Assembly (NCBI GenBank): GCA_002368355.1
Contig: AP018281.1
Span: 2,604,001 to 2,668,000 of the forward strand
Length of the DNA stretch: 64,000 nt
Source: Chondrocystis sp. NIES-4102
GTDB taxonomy: Bacteria > Cyanobacteriota > Cyanobacteriia > Cyanobacteriales > Xenococcaceae
Direction: 5' to 3'
Shown: positions 5,686-33,383 of the stretch, piece after piece
Layout: every line of letters begins with the position of its first letter
How positions within the stretch are numbered: the first letter of the stretch is position 1
Translations under genes and position numbers: made by a program
Notes under the pieces: generated by a model
Told to the model about the DNA's origin: nothing
The model's database searches: none
Seen by the model: only the letters and a program-made list of their open reading frames with translations

Positions 5686-7182
5686 ATGTCACCTGATTTA
5701 ACGTTGCCAAGTATTCAAAACCCAAAAAAAGTTTTGGTAGTTACTGATACATTATTTAATCTTCAATTATTATTTGAATATTTAGGTAAAATAAATTACC
5801 AGTTTTTTATTGCTAAAACAAGCCAACAGGCTAGGGATTTACTAAATTCAATTAGACCTGAGTTTATGATAGTTGACCTTGCTATATTAAGGTTAAATCA
5901 GTTTGATTTTAACCAGCAGTTTGAAATGGCTTTTAAGATTAATGATCATACTATTATTTTTATTAATCCAATTTCAGAATCACAAGCAAAAATACTTCAT
6001 TGCATTAATAATTTTTCAGATGGCATCGATGGGTTAAGAGATTATAAGGAATTACTAATAGGTATCAAAAACTGTTTAACTATTCAAGAGCTTAGTAGAA
6101 GTTTATTTATTGCTAAAAAACAACAACAACTATTAGCTGATTTTATTGAAAATCTTAGTAAATCATTAGATCTAGAAAGCGTTTATAAGAAAATAATTCC
6201 CAGAATTGGTAAATTTTTACAATGCGATCGCCTATCTATAGTTCGTTTAACCAATGCAAATATTGTCGTTGAAGCTGAATTTATTACCCCCAAAGCTAGC
6301 CATATTAATTTTATTGAAGTTAATTTAAGTAACTATGATCAAGTAAGAGGTGAGCGCGAAAAATATTACACGGGCAATATTAAAATAATAGATAAAACCG
6401 ATAATAGTTTCTCCTCAACAATTATTAATAATTTATTTGGCTCACAAATTATTGTACCAATTTTATTACCTCATAGTGAGCTTAAAAGTCATCAATATCA
6501 TCCTTTGTGGGGTTGGTTAATTATAGAACAAACTTGTGAGAGAAAATGGCATCAAGAAGAATTAAGCTTCCTCAGACAATTATCTAATCAATTAGGATTA
6601 ACAATCAAGCATATATTACTTTATCAGCAGTTAGAAAAAAGTAATCAGCAAATGCAAACAGCTAACCTACAACTTAGAGAATTAGCTTTTCATGATCCCT
6701 TAACTCAGGTATCTAATCGTCGTTATTTTGAGAGACAACTAAATATAGAATGGCGTAGACTTAGAAGAATTCCGTCCCCCCTATCGGTAATTTTTTGTGA
6801 TATTGATTGTTTTAAAATTTATAATGATACCTATGGTCATCAGCAAGGAGATAGATGTTTACGGCGAGTAGCCCAAGCCCTTGCCAAAGTAATTAAAAGA
6901 CCTGCTGATCTTTTGGCTCGTTATGGCGGAGAAGAATTTATTGTTATTCTTCCCTACACTCCAGCAGAAGGAGCATTGACTGTAGCGGAGTTGATGAGAG
7001 TAGCAGTAAGAGAATTAAGAATTCCCCACCTCTATTCTGTAGTAGATTCGGTAGTTACTATTAGCGTTGGAGTTGCTACCGCTATTCCTAACTCCGTAGA
7101 TAGTCCATATATGCTAGTAGAATCAGCAGATCAGGCGTTATATAAAGCAAAACAGAATCGTGATTGTGTGGCGGTTTTTTAG
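5686..7182 (+). CDS. REC-like/GAF/GGDEF diguanylate cyclase
   Basis: A 498-aa signalling protein predicted to make cyclic di-GMP from two GTP. Residues 10-125 look like a receiver domain (beta-alpha repeats, 'FMIVDLAI' with a possible phospho-Asp), but the acidic pocket and switch lysine are poorly kept, so phosphorylation is uncertain. Residues about 145-320 form a GAF domain. After a short coiled coil, the GGDEF domain runs from residue 330 with 'DPLTQVSNRR', the metal-binding 'FCDIDCFKIYND' and an intact GGEEF at residues 414-418, so the enzyme should be active. No EAL domain is present. It is a single gene divergent from secDF, with no evident partner. Confidence 0.9.
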   Translation: MSPDLTLPSIQNPKKVLVVTDTLFNLQLLFEYLGKINYQFFIAKTSQQARDLLNSIRPEFMIVDLAILRLNQFDFNQQFEMAFKINDHTIIFINPISESQAKILHCINNFSDGIDGLRDYKELLIGIKNCLTIQELSRSLFIAKKQQQLLADFIENLSKSLDLESVYKKIIPRIGKFLQCDRLSIVRLTNANIVVEAEFITPKASHINFIEVNLSNYDQVRGEREKYYTGNIKIIDKTDNSFSSTIINNLFGSQIIVPILLPHSELKSHQYHPLWGWLIIEQTCERKWHQEELSFLRQLSNQLGLTIKHILLYQQLEKSNQQMQTANLQLRELAFHDPLTQVSNRRYFERQLNIEWRRLRRIPSPLSVIFCDIDCFKIYNDTYGHQQGDRCLRRVAQALAKVIKRPADLLARYGGEEFIVILPYTPAEGALTVAELMRVAVRELRIPHLYSVVDSVVTISVGVATAIPNSVDSPYMLVESADQALYKAKQNRDCVAVF

Positions 7183-29081: not shown

Positions 29082-32000
29082 TTAACTAATACACTGTCGA
29101 GACGGATAATTATCTGTCTTTTCTACTGAGTTTAGGGCATCATCAATTTTTTGAGTCAGTATTTCAGCTATTTTAGGCTCAAGCAAAATAGTAGTGTGAT
29201 CGCCAGGAACTATATGTACATCTACTCCTTCCTCAGCTAGTCCTCCCCAACCTCCATAAGGGTCATGATAACCTTTAACATCCCTAACTTGAGCGCGTAG
29301 TAAGGTTATTTTTTGTCCGTATGCTTTAGGAATGTATTTAAGCATCAACTGATAATTATCTAAACGTTTGGGAGATGATGCTTTTTTGGGGAATAGTCGC
29401 TGATTTAATTGCGATAATTTCTCTATAATTGATCTGAATATTTTTTGTTTGAATAAGTAATCTATCTTATTTAGAAAATAAAAATAGGCTCTAACTGGCG
29501 ATAACTGGGACAAATTATACAAATGAAGCTGCATTCTCTGGGGAAAAGTCGATTTATCGATATAATTAGGGCCTAAACAGTCGATTAGGGCGACAAGTCC
29601 CACTTTTTCTCCTTGTTGTTCTAGTTGTCTTGCCATTTCATAAGCTACAAAACCACCGAAAGAATATCCGCCTAGGAAGTATGGGCCGTGTGGTTGAACA
29701 AGTTGTATTTCTTGGATATAGTCGTTGGCAATTTCTTCTAGGGATGTGGCTGTCCTAGGAGTACCATCTAAACCACGGGCTTGTAAACCATAAAAGGGGT
29801 AATCTTTACCAAAAGCTGCTGCTAAAGGTCGATAGCACAGGATATTACCATTAACTGGGTGGATACAAAAGAAAGGTGGTTTACTACCCTGGGGTTTAAT
29901 ACTAACTAGAGATGACCAAGGTGCTGACCATCCTTGATCCACCATTAAGCTTGCTAATTGAGCGATTGTGGGGGCGGTAAATAGAGTTGCTAGAGGTAAC
30001 TTTACTCCCAAGGTTGCGTGAATTTTCTCAAATAGACGTAGTGCTAAAAGGGAGTTACCACCTAGATCAAAGAAGTTATCATCACGAGCGATCGCTCTGG
30101 TATTGAGGACTTGTGACCAAATTTTGCTCAATTGCACTTCTAAAGGATTTTCTAATAGCTTTCGGTCTTGTTGCTTGGTTAGGTGTTGAGGAGGGGTTTG
30201 AGATAGGGCTTTGAGATCTACTTTGCCATTGGGGGTTAGGGGAAAACTATCGAGGAAAATAAAACTTGCAGGGATAACTGAGTCTGGAAGTTTGGTTTTT
30301 AATAAGTTGCGTAACTGCTGACTAGTTATCTTGGAATTGGGTTTTAAAATGGAGTAGGCAACTAAACTTAGTCCCTGGGTATTATAGGAATTTACTGTAA
30401 CAACTGTTTCTTGGATATCTGGGCATTGCAGTAGGGTAGCTTCTATTTCTCCCAATTCAATTCTGACACCATTGATTTTTACTTGGTTGTCTATTCTACC
30501 TAGAAATTCGATATTGCCATCTTCTAAATAACGTCCTAAATCTCCTGTTTTATATAAACGAGCGGTAGGTAAACTACTAAACGGATCTGCAATAAATTTA
30601 CAGGCGTTTAATTCTGGGCGATGTAGATATTCACGGGCGACACCCACACCACCTATATATAGTTCACCTGTGACCCCGATCGGTACTAATTTGGCTTGTG
30701 GATCTAAAATATAAAAGGACTGGTTAGTAAGAGGACGACCATAGGGAATGGTTTTACCTGCTGTCCAATTTTCGGGTATGGGGTAGTAAATAGACCAAAT
30801 TGAGGCTTCTGTTGCTCCACCTAAACTAATGATTTGCAGTTTTGGGTTGAGATTTTGTAGTTGGGTGATTAAATTGGGATTAATGCGATCGCCACTGAGG
30901 AGAATCAAACGCAATGAGGATGGTAATTGTTTTTTATATGCTATTAGATCGTTAATCAGTAATTCTAAAAGCGCAGGGGCAGAATTCCAAATTGTAATTT
31001 GTTTTTTGGTGATTAATTCTAACCAGTGTTCTGGTTCTGGACAAGTAGCAGGTTGAGGTAAAATTGCTGTACCTCCTGAACCTAAAACCCCAAATAAATC
31101 ATACACTGATAAATCGAAGCTTAATGAGGAGACGGCTAATACCCGATCTTGCTCTGTTACCTTAAAACGCTGCTCCATATCGTATAAGGTATTAACTGCA
31201 CTATGATGTTCTATGGCTACACCTTTGGGATTTCCTGTAGATCCAGATGTATAGATGACATAGGCTAAGTTGTGGCTATTTACCGAGCTTATGGGGTTTG
31301 TGTCTTCTTCTGTTGTTTGCCAGTTTTGATCTAGACAAATAATTTTCGCCGTGGTGGCTGGAAGTTGTTCTAGTAGTTTTGTTTGCGTTAGTAAGACACT
31401 TACTTGTGCATCTTCTAGAAGATAGTTTAATCTGGCAGCAGGATAATTGGGGTCTAATGGTACATAAGCACCACCTGCTTTTAGCACCGCAAATATAGCG
31501 ATCGCCATTTCTACAGATCTCTCTAAACTTACTCCTACTAGGCTTTCTGCCCCTATTCCTAGTTTTTGGAGATGGTGCGCTAATTGATTGGCTTTGGTAT
31601 TTAATTCGCCCCTAGTTAATGATTTTTCTTGACAAATAACCGCTATTGCTTCGCTATCTTCAACGACTCTAGCCTCAAATAACTGATGTATACATAGATG
31701 TTGTGGATAATCTTGCTCAGTTTTATTCCAGGCTAATATACGCTTGGTTTCTTCTAAAGATATTAGGGGATGTTGGCAAGGAGTATCTGGGTTATCTGCA
31801 ATTGCTTCTGTCAGACTCTTCCATTGCTCAATCATGGTTGTTATTTGCACCTTTGAAAATCTTGCGTCATTGTACAACCAAATGTAATGTGAGGCAAATA
31901 TACCTAGAGTCAAGTCTCCAGACACCGTTTCAATGTTATCGGTGATGGTAACTGTAAATTCAGGTGGATTTATGGCTAATTGGGGATATCTGGCTACTAT

Positions 32001-33383
32001 ATCTGTAGTATATGTTGTATGATGTTGATGATCTTTGATTTTTTGTGCGATCGCTTCAACGATACTAGTAAGATGTTGCTGTGGGTTGATATTGATATTT
32101 ACTGGTACACAACTGGCAAAATAGGGATCATTATCTGTTTTGTTTAAATATCCTTCCAAGCCTATACTAAGTTCTTGATTTCCACTTAAACGGGCTAGAT
32201 ATACGGCAAACAAGGCAATAATAACCTCTGATTTTCTTTCTACACCATAGGTTTGTTCAATAAAATTAATTACTTTTTGACTTATGGGTAATTCCGCTTG
32301 CTGATATTTGGCTATCTTCGTGGGGGCAGGTTTTTTAATTCCAGGTAAGGTTAAAGATTGCCATTGGGTTAATTGTTTATACCAATATTTTTCCTTTGGG
32401 GCTAGTTTATTTGCTAGGTTGACGATTTCGTTAGCAGTCTCTGGAGTAATATTTGGTAATTGTTGCCCTGCCTTTAATTGATACTCTACTGCTAGTTGTT
32501 CTATCGAAATTGTTTCACCCAACTTATCACTAATAGTTTGCACGGCTAGATCTTCACTATTAGTTGCCACTATTAACTGTTGAGGTTGAATTGCAATAAT
32601 TGTTCCTGGTGGTTTATTAGATTTGGTAGAAAGCTTTTGTACCCTGGTAACAATTACATAATGAAGATCTATCCCCGATCGCAATACTAATTTAGCTGTG
32701 GTTAGGGTGTTGGGATATTTACCAAAATTTAAACCTCGCACTAAATTATCAATTTTGGCTGCTGAAGATTGGAAATTAATTATACCCAGGGTTGATGGCT
32801 TTTGATGACGACTATAATAACTACGCTTATTTAAATTCTGTGAGGTTGCTATTACTTGTCTTGTAGCTAATTGAGTAATTAATTCTTCAAAAGAAGCGAT
32901 CGCAGCTTGATAACATTTAGTATTAAGGGTTAAAGTTGTATCCGTTGCTTCTATCGGAATTTTTACCTGTTTAAGTATTTTGCCAGTATCGATTTCCCCC
33001 GTCATTTCATGCCAGGTAATGCCGTGTTGTTGTTCACCGTTGATAATTGCCCAAGCAGTCGCATTAATTCCTGCATAGCTAGGTAGAAGGGCATCGTGAT
33101 AGTTAATTGCTTTACCTACTAAATTAATAATTTCTAGTGGCAATATGTTTTGATTAACAATACTAAAAAGATAATCGCACGGTGTCGTTTTTAAATATTC
33201 CAACAACTCTTGAGGCTTTTGCAGATTTATGATTTTCTGTTTATTTGCCCAGTTTTTAACTGTCAGATCTGAGGAAACTATTACTTTTATTTTATGCCCT
33301 TTTTTCTCCAGTATTTCAGCACATTCTATAAGTAAATTACTTTCTCCGATTAGACAGCAACTGAATAAATGTTTTTCTATCAT
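29082..33383 (-). CDS. Single-module NRPS: formyltransferase / half-C / A(Cys) / PCP / TE
   Basis: A 1433-aa nonribosomal peptide synthetase. Residues 1-310 form a complete methionyl-tRNA formyltransferase-like domain with the catalytic Asn94, His96 ('AINYHDALLP') and Asp132 ('EIDTGKIL') plus the C-terminal OB-like part. Residues about 335-555 look like only the C-terminal lobe of a condensation domain; the HHxxxDG motif is missing. The adenylation domain (about 565-1065) has 'YTSGSTGNPKGVAIEHH' and specificity positions reading D-L-Y-N-L-S-L-I-W, the known cysteine code. The carrier domain has 'FFDLGGNSLLALR' (Ser near 1111), and the thioesterase has 'GGYSFGGFVAYEM' and a late His ('GDHTTILLE'). 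The expected product is a released N-formylated cysteine or its derivative, by inference. No other biosynthetic genes flank it. Confidence 0.9.
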   Translation of the reverse strand: MIEKHLFSCCLIGESNLLIECAEILEKKGHKIKVIVSSDLTVKNWANKQKIINLQKPQELLEYLKTTPCDYLFSIVNQNILPLEIINLVGKAINYHDALLPSYAGINATAWAIINGEQQHGITWHEMTGEIDTGKILKQVKIPIEATDTTLTLNTKCYQAAIASFEELITQLATRQVIATSQNLNKRSYYSRHQKPSTLGIINFQSSAAKIDNLVRGLNFGKYPNTLTTAKLVLRSGIDLHYVIVTRVQKLSTKSNKPPGTIIAIQPQQLIVATNSEDLAVQTISDKLGETISIEQLAVEYQLKAGQQLPNITPETANEIVNLANKLAPKEKYWYKQLTQWQSLTLPGIKKPAPTKIAKYQQAELPISQKVINFIEQTYGVERKSEVIIALFAVYLARLSGNQELSIGLEGYLNKTDNDPYFASCVPVNININPQQHLTSIVEAIAQKIKDHQHHTTYTTDIVARYPQLAINPPEFTVTITDNIETVSGDLTLGIFASHYIWLYNDARFSKVQITTMIEQWKSLTEAIADNPDTPCQHPLISLEETKRILAWNKTEQDYPQHLCIHQLFEARVVEDSEAIAVICQEKSLTRGELNTKANQLAHHLQKLGIGAESLVGVSLERSVEMAIAIFAVLKAGGAYVPLDPNYPAARLNYLLEDAQVSVLLTQTKLLEQLPATTAKIICLDQNWQTTEEDTNPISSVNSHNLAYVIYTSGSTGNPKGVAIEHHSAVNTLYDMEQRFKVTEQDRVLAVSSLSFDLSVYDLFGVLGSGGTAILPQPATCPEPEHWLELITKKQITIWNSAPALLELLINDLIAYKKQLPSSLRLILLSGDRINPNLITQLQNLNPKLQIISLGGATEASIWSIYYPIPENWTAGKTIPYGRPLTNQSFYILDPQAKLVPIGVTGELYIGGVGVAREYLHRPELNACKFIADPFSSLPTARLYKTGDLGRYLEDGNIEFLGRIDNQVKINGVRIELGEIEATLLQCPDIQETVVTVNSYNTQGLSLVAYSILKPNSKITSQQLRNLLKTKLPDSVIPASFIFLDSFPLTPNGKVDLKALSQTPPQHLTKQQDRKLLENPLEVQLSKIWSQVLNTRAIARDDNFFDLGGNSLLALRLFEKIHATLGVKLPLATLFTAPTIAQLASLMVDQGWSAPWSSLVSIKPQGSKPPFFCIHPVNGNILCYRPLAAAFGKDYPFYGLQARGLDGTPRTATSLEEIANDYIQEIQLVQPHGPYFLGGYSFGGFVAYEMARQLEQQGEKVGLVALIDCLGPNYIDKSTFPQRMQLHLYNLSQLSPVRAYFYFLNKIDYLFKQKIFRSIIEKLSQLNQRLFPKKASSPKRLDNYQLMLKYIPKAYGQKITLLRAQVRDVKGYHDPYGGWGGLAEEGVDVHIVPGDHTTILLEPKIAEILTQKIDDALNSVEKTDNYPSRQCIS

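Follow-up and report, generated by a model that had tools for sequence, protein, structure and literature searches.

The window analyzed here, a 64,000-nt stretch of the genome of the cyanobacterium Chondrocystis sp. NIES-4102, contains on its reverse strand one open reading frame (ORF) encoding a single-module nonribosomal peptide synthetase (NRPS), with formyltransferase (F), partial condensation (C'), adenylation (A), peptidyl carrier (PCP), and thioesterase (TE) domains (Table 1). An earlier note, made from the sequence without database searches, had described this ORF as having only the C-terminal lobe of a condensation (C) domain, and Pfam agrees: the formyltransferase part matches Formyl_trans_N (5.5e-21) and Formyl_trans_C (2.1e-10), the A domain AMP-binding (4.9e-91) and AMP-binding_C (4.9e-10), the carrier and TE PP-binding (3.7e-15) and Thioesterase (6.3e-31), and C' Condensation (4.7e-12), the last only over profile positions 147-330 of 456. 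In the complete C domain of a related gene (L165, below) the catalytic motif HHILLDG is at residue 151, by arithmetic about profile position 138, so the C' of the window gene begins past it. The three formyltransferase residues named in the note are present as claimed, and its A-domain pocket was independently re-derived. That this pocket is a cysteine code also holds, as DLYNLSLIWK and DLYNMSLIWK appear in the section on cysteine-activating domains of a paper on A-domain signatures (PMC12283262).

Table 1. Coordinates of the NRPS gene and its domains within the window; residue numbers are those of the encoded protein.
Feature	Position	Strand	Basis
Whole gene, F-C'-A-PCP-TE single-module NRPS, 1433 aa, ATG start	29082..33383	(-)	ORF list and Pfam
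Formyltransferase domain, aa 1-310, N- and C-terminal subdomains, Asn94/His96/Asp132	32454..33383	(-)	Pfam, triad
C', condensation-domain C-lobe without HHxxxDG, ~aa 321-548	31740..32423	(-)	Pfam, F-C' junction also in relatives
Adenylation domain, aa 556-1066, pocket DLYNLSLIW	30186..31718	(-)	Pfam, code
Peptidyl carrier domain, Ser1111	29928..30149	(-)	Pfam
Type I thioesterase, Ser1241/Asp1268/His1396 (triad assigned from motif and spacing)	29139..29903	(-)	Pfam, solved relatives

Among solved structures, the formyltransferase is closest to a sugar N-formyltransferase (3e-22), followed by ArnA (1e-18 to 1e-16) and the F domain of LgrA (3e-6). The best TE matches are mixed, including an NRPS TE (7crn, 9e-25) and 4zxh (2e-22) as well as fatty acid synthase and EntF thioesterases. 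A structure prediction for F-C' (545 aa, 4 sequences) had a mean predicted local distance difference test score of 54.5 and a predicted template modeling score of 0.35, and was not used. The genome has one match to the 4'-phosphopantetheinyl-transferase superfamily.

Our leaning is towards a self-contained, one-step NRPS that would load L-cysteine, formylate it on nitrogen, and release it as N-formyl-cysteine. The A domain would activate L-cysteine and load it onto the PCP; the formyltransferase, with N10-formyl-tetrahydrofolate as its most likely donor, would then formylate the alpha-amine of Cys-S-PCP, with C' as a putative non-catalytic platform between F and A; and the TE would free the product, most simply by hydrolysis, giving N-formyl-L-cysteine. 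While the domain content, catalytic residues, and cysteine code can be read directly from the gene, as can its single-gene setting and conservation (below), we infer the substrate, the formyl donor, the order of steps, and the hydrolytic release.

The gene stands alone, as the note had it: there is no second match to any of the six NRPS segments within the window, and the closest further C-domain match elsewhere in the genome lies more than 600 kb away. Larger NRPS loci are present in the same genome at ~727-732 kb and 976-1007 kb. Five flanking ORFs were scanned with Pfam (none, ankyrin, K-channel C-domain, GNAT, Oxidored_molyb), and the others were assessed by eye; no mys cluster was found among these neighbors. 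A debranching-HIT pair flanking the gene is kept in genomes G005, G004, and G008, with ExbD-ExbB also kept in the first two, but in none of the three did the corresponding stretch yield the ankyrin ORF or the NRPS; the window gene therefore sits at a synteny break.

The gene is present in five of the 13 genomes of the genus (G000, G002, G003, G006 with two copies, and G007), two of the eight without it being only 81-82% complete. Named relatives of the window genome include Pleurocapsa sp. CCALA 161 and a Hyellaceae metagenome-assembled genome. (A contig scan with two short patterns gave 4 loci; one Vibrio record, with 80 residues matched, was not used.) The five other copies, from four of the 12 other species, are 56-63% identical to the window gene, and all six genus genes retain DLYN[LM]SLIW, the catalytic residues, and open frames. 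C' is the least conserved domain, at 37-46% identity to that of the window gene. In the two close pairs (L041-L043 and L041-L042), the ratio of nonsynonymous to synonymous substitution rates (dN/dS) is 0.05-0.42 across all five domains and 0.25-0.28 for C', so that no domain, C' included, appears to be decaying there. The other copies occupy three neighborhoods, all unlike that of the window gene: G002, G003, and one G006 copy share the first, G007 has the second, and the third is at the start of a G006 contig (C197). In G007, a group II intron reverse transcriptase with HNH adjoins the gene (L039:5559-7331).

Four genus species also have a second, C'-A-PCP-TE paralog (L044:4651-8094 in the window's own genome, L046, L047, and L048). 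In the three copies read, its pocket lacks the usual Asp235 (IVRDAGIGV, IVRRAGIGV); its substrate may perhaps not be an ordinary amino acid.

An F-C' query was run against two overlapping draws of 388 genomes each, one from the class and one from the order, with the window's own genome in each; matches at E <= 1e-40 were found in 15 and 44 genomes, respectively. Outside the genus, one gene that was read combines the architecture with the code: that of G223 (L070), from another family of the class, which encodes an F-C'-A-PCP-TE protein of 1481 aa, 42% identical to the window gene and with a Cys code. It adjoins a Rubisco operon (identified by eye) and Rubisco activase, and no other NRPS segment was found to ~28 kb on each side of it.

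Counting the window, the five genus copies, and G223, six of the seven F-C' Cys loci are solitary over the stretches read. Specifically, no second NRPS gene was found near the G007 or G002 copies (~28 kb each side, with one short formyltransferase-like match near that of G002), across G006 C123 (48 kb), or in G003 from base 6100 to the contig end. The genome search for the same domain order that the note had proposed thus supports its picture of a gene on its own, with neighborhoods that differ between species; the case of homologs always in multi-gene clusters, which the note had named as contrary evidence, is refuted.

The note had further taken the half C domain as the mark of a larger synthetase that had evolved downward, and this found no support. 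The F proteins read number 45: the window's, five from the genus, 36 from other loci, and three plasmid-borne (Mycetohabitans, Rhizobium, and Bradyrhizobium; 3 of 92 matching records), ten of the 46 places listed for the order draw being unopened. C' follows F in the same frame in 43 of them, a share biased upward because the query itself contained C'; the exceptions, L069 and L077, are broken or short frames. The C' matches of L081 and L113 appear only at a laxer limit of 1e-3, and L081 and L111 have no Pfam Condensation match. The formyltransferase N, H, and D residues are retained in 43, 43, and 42 of the 45, respectively. Since C' follows F in such varied contexts (single modules, starters of multi-module lines, C-F-C'-A-T modules at internal positions, and F-C'-A whose A has an insert), F-C' is a general cassette rather than a scar of the window gene. 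A decaying relic of a larger synthetase is therefore a very improbable account of it: C' lacks its catalytic motif and diverges most among the genus genes, but it is the usual companion of F, multi-module proteins included, and is under purifying selection, and the catalytic residues and frames of the six genus genes are intact. C' as a sign of decay was rejected on these grounds. The outside relatives that score best against the A domain also speak against an evolved-down origin, as in most of them a C domain precedes a single module.

Some of the other F-C' contexts deserve mention in their own right. Formyltransferase-C' is found within C-F-C'-A-T elongation modules at L071, L072, L082, L083, L114-L118, L121, L123, and L130, with A-domain codes like DAEDIGTVV, which we take to be Lys/Orn-like (the L123 frame has no A domain); this suggests side-chain formylation in cis. 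Such internal modules differ from the account of a 2022 paper, which describes F domains in only three nonribosomal peptides, always in initiation modules (PMC8949500); a 2025 paper adds further peptides with predicted formyl loading modules (PMC12858407). Five other loci (L073, L075, L076, L078, and L080) have F-C'-A with a DILQM-type, Gly-like code, a stretch of ~330-400 aa inside A, and then PCP, without a TE; they resemble exopolysaccharide clusters, with families assigned by eye from translations. L127:8949-10658 encodes a formyltransferase-C' protein of 569 aa; neither its frame nor the fetched stretch contains A, PCP, or TE.

Single F-C'-A-PCP-TE modules are not confined to cysteine. 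Five further loci have this architecture with non-Cys codes and no other NRPS segment in the fetched stretch: L111 (DIESLGTVS), L124 and L128 (both DVESIGAIS), L079 (DIEVAGQIT, or GIT, depending on the alignment), and L081 (DMESLGTVD), the last with a weak Formyl_trans_N match, E and G at the Asn94 and Asp132 positions, and a marginal C' match. Solitary formyl-aminoacyl synthetases consequently look recurrent. Codes predict rather than prove, and the quite different ones in these genes leave some room for the window A domain to load another amino acid and yield a different formyl-amino acid. We think this quite unlikely, as its nine residues equal the listed Cys signature and are unchanged, or altered only by L to M, in six other F-C' Cys genes.

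A search with the A domain (E <= 1e-146; matches in 10/388 class and 15/388 order genomes) led to 13 further loci that were opened, with G497 and G484 left out. Most of the best-scoring matches outside the genus are solitary Cys genes in which an ordinary C domain (HHILLDG or HHLLLDG) takes the place of F-C'. Such C-A-PCP-TE genes were read in four of the opened loci (G385, G321, G251, with its TE cut by the contig end, and G215), and besides these in G379 (frame broken in two, on a 10.7-kb contig), with codes DLYN[LM]SLIW or, in G251, DLFNLSLIW; no second NRPS gene was found in the stretches read around them. The remaining opened loci have DLYN or DLYD codes in larger NRPS or NRPS-polyketide synthase genes or clusters, the exception being G480 C74, with no code of this kind read. 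A phosphopantetheinyl transferase lies ~6 kb from L165, one of the solitary C-A(Cys)-PCP-TE genes (with L166, L167, L168, and L136), whose C domains are of the active type. L070 and L167, from different families, both have a solitary Cys NRPS within a few kb of rbcL-rbcX-rbcS (rbc by eye), which could be chance.

In a tree of the A-PCP-TE part (20 rows), the G223 gene is nested within the C-type solitary genes (starred forks, 100/99 and 96/97), and the six Pleurocapsa genes form a clade of their own. A single F-C' clade is rejected by the approximately unbiased (AU) test for A-PCP-TE (p 6.6e-15), A only (6.2e-4), and PCP-TE only (8.9e-5); the F-domain tree agrees in direction. Simple vertical orthology between the Pleurocapsa genes and that of G223 was also rejected. 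Stand-alone Cys A-PCP-TE enzymes have probably acquired F-C' twice, once in the Pleurocapsa-like genus and once in the G223 lineage, in the latter apparently in place of a C domain. That a one-enzyme, one-gene pathway for formylating cysteine and releasing it (as formyl-Cys or its cyclic thiolactone) arose independently in two lineages, within a wider set of solitary single-module "acyl-Cys" synthetases, is a tentative proposal, possible but somewhat doubtful. It hints at an unrecognized small sulfur metabolite.

Several observations weigh against these readings of origin and function. For the F domain, the AU test does not reject one F-C' clade (p 0.0645), so that assembly on two occasions depends on A-PCP-TE; nor is one clade rejected for the 12 solitary Cys genes together (p 0.133). 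An older F-C' gene, later swapped to C in some lines by several gains of C, is possible. The PCP-TE tree is weak, with long branches, few starred forks, a split outgroup, and one row 30% filled, and in the A-only tree L174 and L175, Cys A domains from multi-gene NRPS loci, are placed weakly beside the Pleurocapsa genes (82/76). The distribution within the genus is patchy. With respect to function, the type of TE is not readable from sequence, and in G006 C197, whose contig ends upstream of the F-C' gene, a separate one-module NRPS gene ~12 kb downstream (L202:4658-8218) is a possible partner; it encodes 1186 aa, with a partial C, an A domain with DAEDIGTVV, PCP, and TE, and other genes intervene.

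Two other fates for the product were considered. Loading and formylation might proceed as proposed but the TE cyclize or oligomerize, giving a formyl-Cys thiolactone or an EntF-style cyclic oligo-thiolactone. In favor of this, Cys offers a free nucleophile in its thiol, EntF and other type I TEs are among the matches to the TE, and single-module TEs of the EntF kind can oligomerize, EntF making enterobactin; as no oligomerization-specific residue or motif was identified and the best solved TE matches are mixed, we regard this outcome as unlikely, if credible. About equally improbable is transfer of formyl-Cys in trans to another NRPS or to an amine or thiol acceptor, in the fashion of MysE, which passes Ser to mycosporine-glycine. 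The larger NRPS loci in the window's genome and the second gene in G006 could supply acceptors, but at six of the seven loci no such gene was found in the stretches read, the neighborhoods vary between species, and with the amine formylated, MysE-type chemistry at nitrogen is blocked.

The proposed one-step synthetase can be compared with several known systems. The solved LgrA initiation module (F-A-PCP) of linear gramicidin synthetase shares the formyltransferase Asn, His, and Asp, an A domain and PCP in cis, and, by prediction here, cis formylation of aminoacyl-PCP, and its A-PCP part is related (6e-112 to 5es5). It differs in that F joins A directly (residues 547-1151 of the window protein match 5es5 from residue 188) and in starting a long assembly line; the window gene has a distantly related F with a second subdomain, then C', and ends in its own TE. 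EntF and 4zxh (ABBFA_003403), as C-A-PCP-TE modules, have a similar A-PCP-TE body but a complete C domain with HHxxxDG where the window gene has only F-C'. The cyanobacterial L165-L168 and L136 share A-PCP-TE, a Cys code, and the lack of a second NRPS gene in the stretch read, all of which the window gene has, with a complete C again replacing F-C'. MysE-like A-PCP-TE proteins are also one-module, NRPS-like, and cyanobacterial, but MysE has no formyltransferase, is Ser-specific, and lies within the mys cluster; the window gene differs in its formyltransferase and Cys code. Initiation modules of anabaenopeptilide and kolossin, and predicted formyl loading modules of discodermin and calyxamide, also have F in cis before A, but belong to multi-module lines; the likeness is by description (PMC8949500, PMC12858407).

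N-formylcysteine, the predicted product, is known from other contexts. A deformylase acting on it is reported in Bacillus subtilis, as the product of defB (PMC4703394), and N-formylcysteine arises from formaldehyde and Cys in mammals (PMC9814826); neither route uses an NRPS. No NRPS route to it, and no stand-alone formyl-cysteine NRPS, is named in open-access titles or abstract openings, which mostly do not cover subscription papers. If the proposed function is correct, an enzyme encoded by one gene and combining F with a TE of its own would act as a dedicated N-formyl-amino-acid synthetase, with a product that is presumably useful, as the same list of parts has probably been assembled repeatedly. 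The products of the "acyl-Cys" synthetases would then be a class of small-thiol metabolites not yet recognized, overlooked because no gene cluster surrounds the genes; being a one-gene system, it would be directly testable.

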